From the IMG/VR virus record IMGVR_UViG_3300027759_000195, positions 1 through 38,585 of that record: a stretch of 38,585 bases of DNA; one strand, written 5' to 3'. This DNA comes from a virus. Positions 28,250 to 38,585 of this stretch are shown here, one piece after another. The translations under genes were made by a program, and so were the position numbers. Each line of letters opens with the position of its first letter. Positions within the stretch are counted from its first letter, which is position 1. Under the pieces are notes generated by a model that saw nothing but the letters and a program-made list of their open reading frames with translations, had not been told where the DNA came from and searched no databases.

Positions 28250-28824
28250 CAGTCCTCCACCTCTCGATATTCAGCATCTACAACTAACCGCGTCGCGGCT
28301 TCTTCAAGGGCCTTGGTGATACTGATCGCACCCGAGTGCTCAATTTGTTTAATCTCCCCAAACCGTTTTTTGTTCCAAACACCAAGAAGGTATTTTAACG
28401 TGTTTATTTTAAGAGTGGATCTCTGGACGTCTTCGAAACTGTCCGAGCCCTCGGCAATACCGGGCAACTTGGAGGCTATGATCTCACAACCCAACTCAAG
28501 CGCTTCATAATACTTCTCTTTACGAATTGGATCTTTAAGTATCCATCTTAGAAACCGCGCTCTGTCAAACTCACGGACGTCATCTTTTAAAATGTTACCA
28601 AGCGTTTCACCGCAAGAAAGCTTATCCAAAACGGTGTCTAGAATTATCTCGTACTGCATGACGATGAGTTCCTTTACGTCATTACGGACAAATCGGTCGT
28701 CTTTACCAATAAGCCACTTTGGCAATGGTGAAGACATTATAGTTTGGGAAGTTGGGTCTTGTTGGAATTGGGAGTCTTGGGGGGATGCGTTAATCGCGCC
28801 TAGAGTCCCTGAAGTGTTACTCAT
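28249..28824 (-). CDS. terS: Terminase small subunit
   Basis: A 191-residue protein directly before terL. A Gln/Ser-rich start is followed by a helical DNA-binding region (FVRNDVKELIVMQYEIILDT, GNILKDDVREFDRARFLRWI) and the YEALELGCEIIASKLPGIAE stretch common to small terminases. It recognises the packaging site and loads TerL. No clear ribosome-binding site precedes ATG 28824. Confidence 0.8.
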   Translation of the reverse strand: MSNTSGTLGAINASPQDSQFQQDPTSQTIMSSPLPKWLIGKDDRFVRNDVKELIVMQYEIILDTVLDKLSCGETLGNILKDDVREFDRARFLRWILKDPIRKEKYYEALELGCEIIASKLPGIAEGSDSFEDVQRSTLKINTLKYLLGVWNKKRFGEIKQIEHSGAISITKALEEAATRLVVDAEYREVED

Positions 28825-28830
28825 AGTAAG

Positions 28831-29387
<557 letters not shown>

Positions 29388-31452: not shown

Positions 31453-31625
31453 CCCGCCCCCTATTCGCCCTTATATCCCTTCTTCTATTCCTCGTAGCCG
31501 CTCATACCACGTCACTCGTAAATGACGACTACGCGTACAGATGGGGGGCTAGTATCGTGCTTGTGGTATTGGCTTTGAGTTTCGCGATTAATGCGATAAT
31601 AACAAATGATCAAGGAGACAATTAA
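31449..31625 (+). CDS. Second two-span small membrane protein
   Basis: A 58-residue protein with spans at about 4-19 (PLFALISLLLFLVAAH) and 33-51 (GASIVLVVLALSFAINAI). The topology is the same as the protein at 30226. The 3' end reads into the ribosome-binding site of the Cys-triplet gene. Confidence 0.65.
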   Translation: MTRPLFALISLLLFLVAAHTTSLVNDDYAYRWGASIVLVVLALSFAINAIITNDQGDN

Positions 31626-31626
31626 A

Positions 31627-32376
31627 ATGAAAACCGAGATATTTAGTAGTTACGACGAATTTTTGAACAGACCCGACAAACAAACAAACGGTGTGTCCGT
31701 TGGGTTTTCAAAAAAGTACCCGGGTTTTACTTTGGATAACGAGACAAATTCAGGTTGTTGGGATTGCAGCGATTGCAGCGATTGCCGCGATTGCCGCGAT
31801 TGCCGCGATTGTTGGGATTGCTACGATTGCAGCGATTGTTGGGATTGCAACGGTTGCAGCGGTTGCGGCGGTTGCGGCGATTGCTACGATTGCCGCGGTT
31901 GCCGCGATTGCCGCGGTTGCAGCGATTGCCGCGATTGCCGCGGTTGCCGCGATTGCCACGGTTGCGGCGGTTGCGGCGATTGTTGGGAGTGCTACGATTG
32001 CCGCGGTTGCAACGGTTGCCGCGATTGCCGCGATTGCCGCGATTGCCGCGGTCAATCAAACGAGCCACTTGTTATCCCAAAAATTGAAAATATTCATCAG
32101 AAATTATTAGAAGCTTGCAGTGGCGATAATTCGCTTGATATGTCCAATTGGCACACGTGCGACACAACACACTGCCGGGCTGGCTGGATAGTAACGCTGG
32201 CCGGAGAGGATGGTAAGAAATTAGAGGGTCATCTAGGTACTCCGTTAGCGGCCAATAAAATATATAAAGCAAGCTCAGATATAAAGGTCGATTGGGCACT
32301 AAGATTTTACGAGTCAGACGATGTTGCTATGGCTGACATAAAGCGTTGCGCGGAATTAGAAAAAGAAGGTAATTAA
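31627..32376 (+). CDS. Cys-triplet repeat protein (33 consecutive C-x-D/G units) with conserved C-terminal domain
   Basis: A 249-residue protein, start chosen behind aaggagacaattaaaATG. Residues 44-142 are 33 consecutive triplets with Cys at every third position and Asp or Gly at the third place (CWD, CSD, CRD, CYD, CGG, CWE and so on). The array is followed by a separate domain from about 152, including MSNWHTCDTTHCRAGWIVTL and GTPLAANKIY. I know that C-terminal domain from other phage proteins, where repeats precede it. Every-third-residue cysteine would put thiols on one face of a regular helix or solenoid, fit for metal binding or redox, but no structure is known to me. The next genes encode other repeat proteins. 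Confidence 0.75.
   Translation: MKTEIFSSYDEFLNRPDKQTNGVSVGFSKKYPGFTLDNETNSGCWDCSDCSDCRDCRDCRDCWDCYDCSDCWDCNGCSGCGGCGDCYDCRGCRDCRGCSDCRDCRGCRDCHGCGGCGDCWECYDCRGCNGCRDCRDCRDCRGQSNEPLVIPKIENIHQKLLEACSGDNSLDMSNWHTCDTTHCRAGWIVTLAGEDGKKLEGHLGTPLAANKIYKASSDIKVDWALRFYESDDVAMADIKRCAELEKEGN
31756..32052 (+). repeat. 9-bp tandem repeat encoding 33 Cys-x-x triplets
   Basis: Thirty-three in-phase 9-bp units of the type tgc-cgc-gat. All frames of both strands remain largely open through it because of the period. Confidence 0.95.
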
Positions 32377-32377
32377 A

Positions 32378-32896
32378 ATGGCTAACGATAAATACGAATT
32401 AATAGGAGAGCCGAGCATTGACGGACTTCGCCGAATCCGAGCTCTCCGCGATATCGGTAACTCAGTTAAGGCCGGAGACGTAGGCGGGTGGGTTGAGTCG
32501 GATAAAATTTTATCATTTCTCGGCGATGCGTGGATCTCTGGTAATGCGAAGGTCTCTGGTAATGCGAAGGTCTCCGGCAATGCGTGGATCTCTGGTAATG
32601 CGAAGGTCTCTGGTAATGCGAACGTCTCCGGCAATGCGTGGATCTCTGGTGCTGCGAAGGTCTCCGGCGATTCGTGGATCTCCGATAATGCGCATGTCTT
32701 TGGTGATTCGCAAGTCTCCGGTTATGCGCAGGTCTCCGGTACTTCGTGGATCTTCGGTAATGCGATGGTCTCCGATAATGCGCGTATCTACTTTGATGCG
32801 CAAGTTTCCGGTAATGCGGTGGTGACCGGTAATGCGCGTATCTACGGTAATTGGGTGGTGAACGGTAATGCACGTCTCGGAGGAAGTTTAATATGA
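32378..32896 (+). CDS. Left-handed beta-helix (hexapeptide repeat) protein, paralogue 1
   Basis: A 172-residue protein. Residues 1-48 are a non-repeat cap (KYELIGEPSIDGLRRIRALR, DVGGWVES) typical of phage YdcK-like proteins. From about 49 on come hexapeptides of the form NA-x-V-S-G (AWISGNAKVSGNAKVSGNA), some 19 units. This is the LbH pattern of acyltransferases, but no active-site loop or conserved His is seen, so a structural or binding role is more likely. First of three tandem copies; the first 120 bp are identical to copy 2. Confidence 0.82.
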   Translation: MANDKYELIGEPSIDGLRRIRALRDIGNSVKAGDVGGWVESDKILSFLGDAWISGNAKVSGNAKVSGNAWISGNAKVSGNANVSGNAWISGAAKVSGDSWISDNAHVFGDSQVSGYAQVSGTSWIFGNAMVSDNARIYFDAQVSGNAVVTGNARIYGNWVVNGNARLGGSLI

Positions 32897-34366
32897 TCAA
32901 GGAGACAGTTAAAATGGTTAACGATAAATACGAATTAATAGGAGAGCCGAGCATTGACGGACTTCGCCGAATCCGAGCTCTCCGCGATATCGGTAACTCA
33001 GTTAAGGCCGGAGACGTAGGCGGGTGGGTTGAGTCGGAGAAAAATTTATCACATCTCGGCGATTCGTGGATCTCCGGTGATGTGCGTGTCTACGATAATG
33101 TGCGTGTCTACGGTAATGCGTGGATCTCCGGTAATGCGATGCTTTTCGGTAATGCGATGGTTTACGGTGATGCGCAGGTCTCCGGTTATGCGCAGATCTT
33201 TGATGATGTTCAGATCTTTGATGATGCGCATGTCACCGGTAATGCGATTGTCTCCGGTAATGCGACGGTTTTCGGTGATGCGCTGGTTTGCAGTAATGCG
33301 CGTGTCACCGATAATGCGCAGGTCACCGATAATGCGCGTATCTACTTTGATGCGCAAGTTTCCGGTAATGCGCGGGTCTCCGGTTTTGCAAAGGTCGAAG
33401 ATAATGCGACGGTCTCCGGTAATGCGTGGGTCTTTGGTGATGCGCGTGTCTCCGGTTATGCGCGTGTCTCCGGTAATACGCGTGTCTCCGGTAATGCGCA
33501 GGTCTTTGGTGATTCGCAAGTCTCCGGTTATGCGCACGTCTCCGGTAATTCGCAGGTCTTTGGTGATGCGCGTGTCTCCATTTTTGAAGAAGGTTTAATA
33601 TGAGAAGGACAATTAAAATGGCTAACGATAAATACGAATTAATAGGAGATCCAACCATTGACGGAATTCACCGAATCCGAGCTCTCCGCGATATCGGTGA
33701 CTCAGTTAAAGCCGGAGACGTAGGGGGGTGGGTTGAGTCGGATAAAAACTTATCATGCCTCGGCGATGCGTGGATCTCTGGTAATGCGATGGTTTTCGGT
33801 GATTCGGTGGTGAACGGTAATGCACGTGTCTCCGATAGTGCGATGGTCTCCGGTAATGCACGTGTCTCCGGTAATGCGCAGATCGAAGATAGCGCGATGC
33901 TCTCCGGTAATGCGCGGGTCTCCGCTAATGCGCGTGTCACCGGTAATCCGTTTGTCTCCGGTGATTCGTGGATCTTCGATAATGCGACGGTCTCCGGTAA
34001 TGCCCAGGTCTTTGGTGATTCGCAAGTCTCCGGTAATGCGCAGGTCTCCGGTAATGCGCGTGTCACCGGTAATGCGATGGTCTCCGGTAATGCGCGTGTC
34101 ACCGGTAATCCGTTTGTCTCCGGTGATTCGTGGATCTTCGATAATGCGACGGTCTCCGGTAATGCCCAGGTCTTTGGTGATTCGCAAGTCTCCGGTAATG
34201 CCCAGGTCTTTGGTGATTCGCAAGTCTCCGGTAATGCGCAGGTCTCCGGTAATGCGAAGGTTTTCGGTAATGCGATGGTTTTCGGTGATGCGGTGGTGAC
34301 CGGCGATGCGATGGTTTTCGGTGATGCGGTGGTGACCGGCGATGCGGTGGTGACCGGTGATTCAGA
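32520..34366 (+). repeat. 18-bp periodic repeat region of three beta-helix genes
   Basis: Hexapeptide-coding 18-bp units with core ggtctccggtaatgcg run through three genes, interrupted by the caps. Includes 120-bp and 114-bp identical segments between and within genes. Confidence 0.9.
32914..33603 (+). CDS. Left-handed beta-helix protein, paralogue 2
   Basis: A 229-residue protein with the same cap (120 bp identical, 32919-33038 against 32383-32502) and about 29 hexapeptides with more varied positions (VYGNA, IFDDV, VTDNA, VCSNA). The start at 32914 is chosen behind aaggagacagttaaaATG over an ATG 21 bp upstream. It also shares the stretch encoding ARIYFDAQVSGNA with paralogue 1, a sign of exchange between copies. 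Confidence 0.82.
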   Translation: MVNDKYELIGEPSIDGLRRIRALRDIGNSVKAGDVGGWVESEKNLSHLGDSWISGDVRVYDNVRVYGNAWISGNAMLFGNAMVYGDAQVSGYAQIFDDVQIFDDAHVTGNAIVSGNATVFGDALVCSNARVTDNAQVTDNARIYFDAQVSGNARVSGFAKVEDNATVSGNAWVFGDARVSGYARVSGNTRVSGNAQVFGDSQVSGYAHVSGNSQVFGDARVSIFEEGLI

Positions 34367-34376
34367 GGAGGTTTAA
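33618..34376 (+). CDS. Left-handed beta-helix protein, paralogue 3
   Basis: A 252-residue protein with a slightly diverged cap (KYELIGDPTIDGIHRIRALR) and about 33 hexapeptides. It contains a perfect 114-bp direct repeat (33926-34039 and 34088-34201, offset 162 bp, nine hexapeptides). The start at 33618 is behind aaggacaattaaaATG. It is the longest of the three, as if grown by internal duplication. Confidence 0.82.
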   Translation: MANDKYELIGDPTIDGIHRIRALRDIGDSVKAGDVGGWVESDKNLSCLGDAWISGNAMVFGDSVVNGNARVSDSAMVSGNARVSGNAQIEDSAMLSGNARVSANARVTGNPFVSGDSWIFDNATVSGNAQVFGDSQVSGNAQVSGNARVTGNAMVSGNARVTGNPFVSGDSWIFDNATVSGNAQVFGDSQVSGNAQVFGDSQVSGNAQVSGNAKVFGNAMVFGDAVVTGDAMVFGDAVVTGDAVVTGDSEEV

Positions 34377-34411
34377 TACGAGATGGCAGAATTAGAAGAA
34401 AAGGAGAGATA

Positions 34412-34861
34412 ATGAAAAGTCTTAATCTTTACCCCGGATGCCCATTGTCACTACTAGACATGACTTACGAGGAGATTGTGCGACATACCGGTGACATAAA
34501 TGTAATTCTTGATATCCACGAGAAGAGGCATTGTGTAATAAAACCGTATTACCACCGAATCACCGAAAACCGTCGCATTACCGTAGACACGCGCTTTACC
34601 TGCACCCCATGTGGTATAGACATGGGGTTGAGGGACCCGTTCCGAAGGGTTAAAGTTTTAAAATTTAACGGGGCTTTATTGAATCGCGAGTTGAATGGCG
34701 TAAACGATTTTGAGGTAATTAATTTTTACCACACTCGTCATTGTATTGGTGATTTATATAGAGAGTTCAGGACCACTGCGGTTCAGGATGTTCGGTGTGA
34801 TACGTGCGGATTGTCTCATTTTATTTTTAAAGCAAAAGAAAAGGATCAAAAAAATGACTAA
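34412..34861 (+). CDS. Cysteine-containing protein with an inverted beta-helix repeat fragment inside
   Basis: A 149-residue protein behind aaaggagagataATG. Cysteine pairs suggest metal binding (TCTPCGI near 69, RCDTCGL near 130). Residues about 47-61 (YHRITENRRITVDTR) are the antisense reading of the neighbouring beta-helix repeat. The reverse complement of 34551-34594 encodes ARVYGNATVFGDSVV, and 26 bp of it differ from copy 3 at one base. The rest of the protein is not repeat-like. Function unknown. Confidence 0.65.
   Translation: MKSLNLYPGCPLSLLDMTYEEIVRHTGDINVILDIHEKRHCVIKPYYHRITENRRITVDTRFTCTPCGIDMGLRDPFRRVKVLKFNGALLNRELNGVNDFEVINFYHTRHCIGDLYREFRTTAVQDVRCDTCGLSHFIFKAKEKDQKND
34551..34594 (-). 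repeat. Inverted fragment of beta-helix repeat
   Basis: Reverse complement matches the 18-bp repeat units of 32914-34376. It is closest to 33786-33811 (25 of 26 bases) on one side and to part of 33102-33126 on the other. Weaker similarity seems to extend into both flanks. Confidence 0.85.
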
Positions 34862-35144
34862 AGTTTATTGTGAAGATTGTAAGCACTGCGCGTTCTCTTA
34901 CATAGGATCGCTTGACGGACTTTATTGCACCAATGAGTCGTTTGCATCATTTAAAGACACCCCATTCCGGCGTGTAATAGTATTTAAAAGGTTGCAAGAG
35001 GTAAACGAGAACAACGATTGCTCTTTATTTGAACCGAAACTGTTAGAACCGAAACCGTTAGAACCGTTAAAAAGTAATGATAAAAATGGTTTTATAATAA
35101 AACTAATTGCGAAAATAGTACCGGGATGGATTAAATTAAAATGA
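34854..35144 (+). CDS. Cysteine-motif small protein
   Basis: A 96-residue protein; ATG 34854 overlaps the previous stop and follows aagga. It starts with YCEDCKHCAFSYIG and has a later GLYCTN and NNDCSLF. The C-x2-C-x2-C start plus two later cysteines resembles a small zinc site common to many phage accessory proteins. A Leu-Glu-Pro repeat (EPKLLEPKPLEPL) links to a hydrophobic, basic tail. Confidence 0.65.
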   Translation: MTKVYCEDCKHCAFSYIGSLDGLYCTNESFASFKDTPFRRVIVFKRLQEVNENNDCSLFEPKLLEPKPLEPLKSNDKNGFIIKLIAKIVPGWIKLK

Positions 35145-35326
35145 TGAAAAAGTTAATTGCAGCAGTTGCGACACTGCCTCAAAAAGATCGCGCTAAATTA
35201 GACGTATTGGACGCGTTGGACACTTTGTGTGCATCGCAATCAATACGGGAGGTAATTGTATCTCTCGAACGATTAGAGGCGCGGATGGCGGAGCTTGAAC
35301 AATTTAGTGAGTCAGAAGAAGATTAA
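35141..35326 (+). CDS. Small coiled-coil protein
   Basis: A 61-residue helical protein (ATGA overlap). A hydrophobic start is followed by LDVLDALDTL and SLERLEARMAELEQF with heptad character, ending acidic. Probably dimerises; function unknown. Confidence 0.6.
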   Translation: MMKKLIAAVATLPQKDRAKLDVLDALDTLCASQSIREVIVSLERLEARMAELEQFSESEED

Positions 35327-38213: not shown

Positions 38214-38405
38214 ATGAATAGAAGTTTAAACGTATCAATGGGGGTAAGGGTCCCAAAGATACTGTATGAGAAATTCTCGAAGAAGGCCAAACTACACGGC
38301 GGTTCTTCAGAACTGCTGCGTGAAATGATGGAAGCATTTGTAAGTGATCGATTAAAAATAACTCAAGACCCAGAAAAGGAAAAGCTATATGTCTCTGGAA
38401 AGTAA
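38214..38405 (+). CDS. Small ribbon-helix-helix-like protein
   Basis: A 63-residue protein; the start is behind gaaaggag rather than upstream alternatives. MNRSLNVSMGVRVPKILYEK gives a short strand and first helix, and GSSELLREMMEAFVSDRLK the second. This is the size and order of Arc/MetJ-type (RHH) regulators, which bind DNA as dimers, although a match is not certain. First gene of the replication operon, divergent from primase, and a candidate autoregulator. Its end overlaps the VAAP protein start. Confidence 0.6.
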   Translation: MNRSLNVSMGVRVPKILYEKFSKKAKLHGGSSELLREMMEAFVSDRLKITQDPEKEKLYVSGK

Positions 38406-38585
38406 CATTGCAGATCTAGCCAAAGCAGTTGAGGGATTGTCTCAAGCATTGAAGCTCACACTGGCAGCACCAGTCGCAGCACCAGTCGCAGCACCAGTCG
38501 CAGCACCAGTCGCAGCACCAGTCGCAGCACCAGTCGCAGCACCAGTCGCAGCACCAGTCGCAGCACCAGTCCCAGCACCAGTCGC
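38389..38585 (+). CDS. VAAP-repeat protein, N-terminal part (runs off window end, continues at 2-304)
   Basis: The ATG lies inside the 3' end of the preceding gene (stop 38403-38405). About 28 residues of a helical, amphipathic N-terminus are followed by nine four-residue VAAP units; the last unit is VPAP. The frame stays open to the window end and joins in frame, across the junction, to the repeat at position 2. N-terminal helices followed by an Ala/Pro linker and a small C-terminal domain are seen in some phage early proteins. I do not recognise a named family. The Ala-Pro repeat should be an extended, flexible linker. Repeat number is uncertain because the sequence was broken inside it. 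Confidence 0.75.
   Translation, partial: MSLESNIADLAKAVEGLSQALKLTLAAPVAAPVAAPVAAPVAAPVAAPVAAPVAAPVAAPVPAPV
38464..38585 (+). repeat. 12-bp tandem repeat (right copy of junction minisatellite)
   Basis: About ten units of the same 12-bp repeat found at 1-99, with one variant near 38572 (gca to cca, Ala to Pro). Joining end to start keeps the frame but leaves a 6-bp short unit, as expected from an assembly broken in a repeat. Confidence 0.95.

Follow-up and report, generated by a model that had tools for sequence, protein, structure and literature searches.

Short-range template-switch mutations have reportedly arisen in great ape genomes. A transient switch to a nearby template may copy a short stretch of DNA, and this is what such mutations share with the locus described here, although in this phage the event is one that we infer. 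Repeat DNA within coding sequence is represented by the Rickettsia palindromic elements (RPEs), which are described as families of about 150 bp with many insertions, found in frame in unrelated genes (PMC10969869). Nematomorpha mitochondrial genes contain coding palindromes, perfect repeats embedded within the genes (PMC6649704).

The viral record analysed here has 38,585 bases and is referred to as the window. About 50 nt of an upstream repeat array have most likely been copied in inverted orientation into a downstream gene of this record, and were probably kept since the reading frame stays open. As with the RPEs, repeat DNA in frame within an unrelated coding gene adds a peptide. Unlike the RPEs, as far as that account characterises them, the case here consists of one 50-nt stretch from an adjacent coding array, with no element structure and no family (PMC10969869). 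The Nematomorpha palindromes, in their published outline, are likewise inverted repeats in coding DNA with both arms encoding protein. In our case, however, the arms are imperfect and lie in different genes, and one of them is a solenoid array (PMC6649704). The donor family of the segment in phages is that of the YdcK-type beta-solenoids (PF18836, phrog_5070/7964). Unlike these, the segment is read antisense and forms no solenoid in its gene. Our literature search on YdcK-type solenoids found no paper, and among the papers that our searches listed we recognised no report of an inverted solenoid-repeat copy inside a neighbouring gene.

The probable donor beta-solenoid genes

By its terminase, the window is related to podoviruses, among others, that carry P22-type annotations. 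A plus-strand cluster located between the terminase genes and a primase/helicase gene holds three head-to-tail solenoid paralogues, and the ORF hosting the inverted segment is positioned directly downstream. The paralogues span 32378-32896 (gene 1; PF18836 5.1e-16, phrog_5070 1e-51), 32893-33603 (gene 2; PF18836 3.9e-26) and 33600-34376 (gene 3; PF18836 3.9e-32). Their PF18836 scores of 57.6, 89.1 and 107.8 bits, respectively, exceed the Pfam cut-off of 30 and place all three among the YdcK-type proteins. Their N-terminal domains are nearly identical (84-86% to gene 3), and behind each of them comes an array whose 18-nt units encode YdcK-type beta-solenoid hexapeptides. Gene 3 matches 72 phage records. 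Genes 1 and 2 have an exact 120-nt repeat in common (32383 and 32919), and gene 3 contains an exact 114-nt direct repeat (33926-34201) with an offset of 162 nt, which is nine units. Judging by the sequence, both repeats appear to come from recent array and gene duplication.

Other repeats were also observed in the window. The ORF at 31606-32376, which adjoins the solenoid genes, has a long DCRDC-type repeat run with a 9-nt unit (phrog_31265 and phrog_15341). A CA/TG dinucleotide run, translated as HTHTHT or CVCVCV, is found at 28821-29022 near the terminase genes. Both window ends (1-304 and 38389-38585) lie within one (VAAP)n tandem repeat, so the record probably either is circular or was interrupted at this repeat.

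A sharp-edged inverted segment

In a repeat search of the window, the reverse complement of the 50 nt at 34551-34600 resembled the 18-nt arrays of the three upstream genes. The segment, on the minus strand relative to the arrays, comprises 2.8 repeat units, and its reverse complement gives GKARVY GNATVF GDSVV in the solenoid reading. The original prediction had seen beta-helix hexapeptides in the reverse complement of 34551-34594, which we confirmed with a somewhat larger true extent, and its match of 25 out of 26 nt between the reverse complement of 34551-34576 and 33786-33811 is exact as given. The best single donor stretch is located at 33238-33287 in gene 2 (plus strand) and agrees with the segment at 44/50 positions (88%). 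The stretch 33780-33811 in gene 3 (plus strand) is identical to the second and third units of the segment over 31 of 32 nt. Per unit, the identity of the segment to the arrays is 16/18 (gene 1), 18/18 (gene 2) and 14/14 (gene 3). No array stretch in the window is identical to the entire 50 nt.

The highest match among background 50-mers was 29/50 (n=6898, genome outside 31.6-35.6 kb) and among mononucleotide shuffles of the segment 31/50 (n=5000), compared with 44/50 for the segment itself. Scored with a cyclic 18-nt profile, the segment reached 56.7 bits, and none of 396 background tiles exceeded 21.9. Outside the arrays, the window has no other inverted match than this one (E 3e-11), whereas a mobile palindromic element would be present in several dispersed copies per genome.

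The segment is 50 nt long and has sharp edges. For the rest of 34412-34861, four tests gave nothing significant as an antisense-repeat signal. The forward score in the antisense direction had p 0.10-0.24 for 34412-34550 and p 0.67-0.91 for 34601-34739. On the N flank, the Smith-Waterman alignment gave p 0.21 and 0.39 and the RNA duplex energy p 0.16, while the profile scores of the immediate 20-30 nt flanks had p 0.24-0.34. The N-flank profile peak of 15.0 bits at 34486-34497 is weak, above the 95th and below the 99th percentile of tiles. The N flank also holds an exact 12-nt inverted match, ATGTCACCGGTA. An antisense origin of the whole gene had been suspected by eye (GTCACCGGT, TCGTGGATATC, AAAACCGT-ATTACC and a gapped continuation) and was rejected by the statistics of the flanks. 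From the earlier proposal, the inverted repeat copy in the gene is supported by the match, the profile and the shuffles, while a partly antisense birth of the gene finds no significant signal in the flanks beyond the 50 nt.

The segment is read in a stop-free antisense frame

The host ORF (34412-34861, plus strand, 149 aa in the ORF list) is a putative gene. It is preceded by a Shine-Dalgarno-like AGGAGA, and its 3' end overlaps the start of the next ORF (34854-35144). The codons of the gene are positioned exactly opposite the solenoid codons; at 34598-34600, for instance, the coordinates put the gene codon ACC against the repeat codon GGT. The predicted translation of the full segment is YHRITENRRITVDTRFT, residues 47-63. 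The peptide named in the original prediction, YHRITENRRITVDTR, was right and corresponds to residues 47-61.

In the codon-aligned antisense frame we found no stops in any of the three arrays, and in the other antisense frames 0-8 per array. It is the sole antisense frame that is stop-free in every array, and the one in which the segment is read. Taking the three antisense frames together, 50-nt slices were open in 83% of cases within the arrays, in 48% elsewhere on the minus strand and in 44% on the plus strand. Therefore, a piece of array that lands in the codon-aligned register leaves the gene open. The same property leads annotators to call antisense genes over such arrays, as in the Acidovorax phage AP1 (OM049504). 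There, UIS65439.1 (L026, 19917-20477, minus strand) reads RIAVDPRIAVD repeats, antisense of a plus-strand solenoid gene, and is probably a mis-annotation.

The host protein and its relatives

By eye, the host protein has two RHC...CxxCG modules (RHC...CTPCG and RHC...CDTCG). The two modules align with each other (shuffle p 0.006-0.014) and, from the CxxC motif, presumably bind zinc. The segment occupies the stretch directly preceding the first CxxC motif. In the second module, an antisense repeat signal is absent and the place of the segment is shorter by 5 residues. Neither Pfam nor PHROGs gave a family for the host protein at E 0.1, so solenoid repeats were not found in its translation, and NCBIfam gave a negligible match only (E 0.088). 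Solved structures gave no match at E 1, and the single-sequence AlphaFold model had a mean pLDDT of 31.5 and was unusable.

A tblastn search with the host protein against 50,697 records of phages and 72,556 of plasmids gave no match at E 1. In IMG/VR, the relatives of the host gene were limited to two contigs of the same virus, which are identical to the window over 32300-35300 and about 99.95% identical over longer stretches, with one short gap. Both carry the segment in the same orientation (2/2, inverted allele 0/2); given how little they differ from the window, they may be non-independent assemblies. A pattern search of GTDB contigs found no relative of the host gene; since these scans need exact 8-residue peptides, distant relatives may be missed. 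The 93 other fetched loci (1.55 Mb) contained no host-gene relative at E < 0.05. Related phages were reached via the terminase and the primase, and the nearest relative found was Phage DSL-LC05 (Dishui Lake), with 59.7% for the terminase and, across 76% of the query, 57.0% for the primase. Its region between terminase and primase has neither the host gene nor the arrays, so it does not discriminate between insertion and birth. Since no orthologue lacking the segment was found, insertion, replacement and gene birth around the segment are not separable.

Inverted array pieces in other loci

To see how often such pieces recur, we surveyed 91 sequences, which were the window and 90 loci; the related loci were taken from the best 80 of 354 confirmed stretches. 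The survey covers arrays detected by a regular expression, which were present in 84 sequences; the remaining 7 were set aside. In five of the 84, inverted matches lay outside the arrays: the window, L043, L046, L058 and L068. No second inverted array piece inside a coding frame was found among the 84. From the length and number of their matches, L046, L058 and L068 look like whole solenoid genes on the opposite strand. The piece in L043 (7249-7296, about 49 nt, two solenoid units) is positioned just upstream of a minus-strand gene and reads VYGDAQVYGDAT followed by a stop, and is thus a non-coding relic and not a case of antisense coding. Within the arrays of L044 and L110 there was a single inverted match apiece, and displaced direct matches were observed in 2/84 (L050 and L076). 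When the arrays were reversed but not complemented as a control, spurious matches down to 9e-6 appeared in 2/84 loci (L056 and L071), so weak matches in the survey mean little. In Vibrio phage 1.139.A (MG592510), the solenoid array in the gene of a 'trimeric LpxA-like protein' (L033, 3994-4133) is annotated as three CRISPR spacers.

Origin of the segment

The match, its boundaries and the open frame are what is observed here. Most likely, some 50 nt of the solenoid array upstream were copied in inverted orientation, through a local template switch during replication or through fold-back repair. The piece would then have been inserted or exchanged in the downstream gene of the same cluster. The host gene would stay open through the piece and gain or exchange 17 residues directly ahead of the first CxxC. 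We suppose that the protein tolerates these residues or profits from them as a strand-turn-strand that would extend a putative zinc-binding hairpin.

We take the segment to have been copied rather than inverted in place. The account as a whole is favoured by a match that is strong and sharply limited, by the segment being a mosaic of units present in the arrays and by its presence in both other contigs. That the arrays recombine is indicated by the exact 120-nt and 114-nt direct repeats, and the shorter second module without repeat signal also fits. The donor is kept nearby, with arrays 0.2-2 kb upstream, as a template switch or fold-back repair would require. Of the other marks of such an event, inspection of the junctions by eye found no clear microhomology, and no segment-free allele was found. 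Since the arrays belong to a widespread family, the direction was presumably from array to gene, and the stop-free codon-aligned antisense frame would account for the persistence of the segment.

The main rival is a relic: an inverted solenoid gene was once here and decayed, and a new ORF arose over its remains, with 50 nt still recognisable. The gene-length opposite-strand matches in three surveyed loci, the non-coding relic at L043 and the exact 12-nt match in the N flank are in line with it. However, uniform decay would give a gradient, and by unit the 50 nt are almost undecayed while the flanks have no significant remnant signal. We therefore regard a decayed gene as unlikely.

Still less probable is that the segment was kept for RNA or DNA pairing, whether it folds back on the array as a long hairpin of one common transcript or serves as an inversion arm. 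The RNA of 34200-34640 folds at -171 kcal/mol (z -6.66, 0/100 shuffles as low) and the predicted fold joins 34248-34298 to 34550-34600, while the downstream gene by itself, with the array left out, has z -1.58. This low energy comes from the inverted repeat itself, and any inverted repeat of this size folds likewise. Moreover, the start region is not clearly sequestered and translation would disrupt the hairpin, and against an inversion arm both other contigs have the same orientation.

We give little credit to an artefact of assembly or annotation. It is true that the record was drawn from a collection of metagenomes, that assembly of repeat arrays is difficult and that, as in Acidovorax phage AP1, long antisense ORFs over such arrays are annotated as genes elsewhere. 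However, the 50 nt are identical to no array stretch, the two other contigs carry the identical sequence, and the ORF has an open frame, a ribosome-site-like sequence upstream and an overlap with the next start.

Finally, although the antisense peptide sits smoothly ahead of the CxxC and a second, similar module exists in the gene, a zinc-module sequence that resembles the antisense repeat by accident or convergence is scarcely credible, being refuted at the DNA level by 44/50 against the background and shuffle maxima.

What the probable inverted copy would mean

Under inverted copying from the array into the gene, it could be imagined that stop-free arrays act as a both-strand coding reservoir. 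Inverted pieces would then give neighbouring genes an in-frame RITxxx peptide, here a working zinc-module hairpin. We hold this extension to be doubtful. That arrays could be a good source of peptides is suggested by their stop-free codon-aligned antisense frame; since the survey returned no second coding case, such a general role is so far unsupported. The locus is thus a single, so far one-off example of repeat DNA seeding new protein sequence. It would be a clean small case of antisense coding DNA reused as protein, in which the donor, the boundaries and the frame are all visible.
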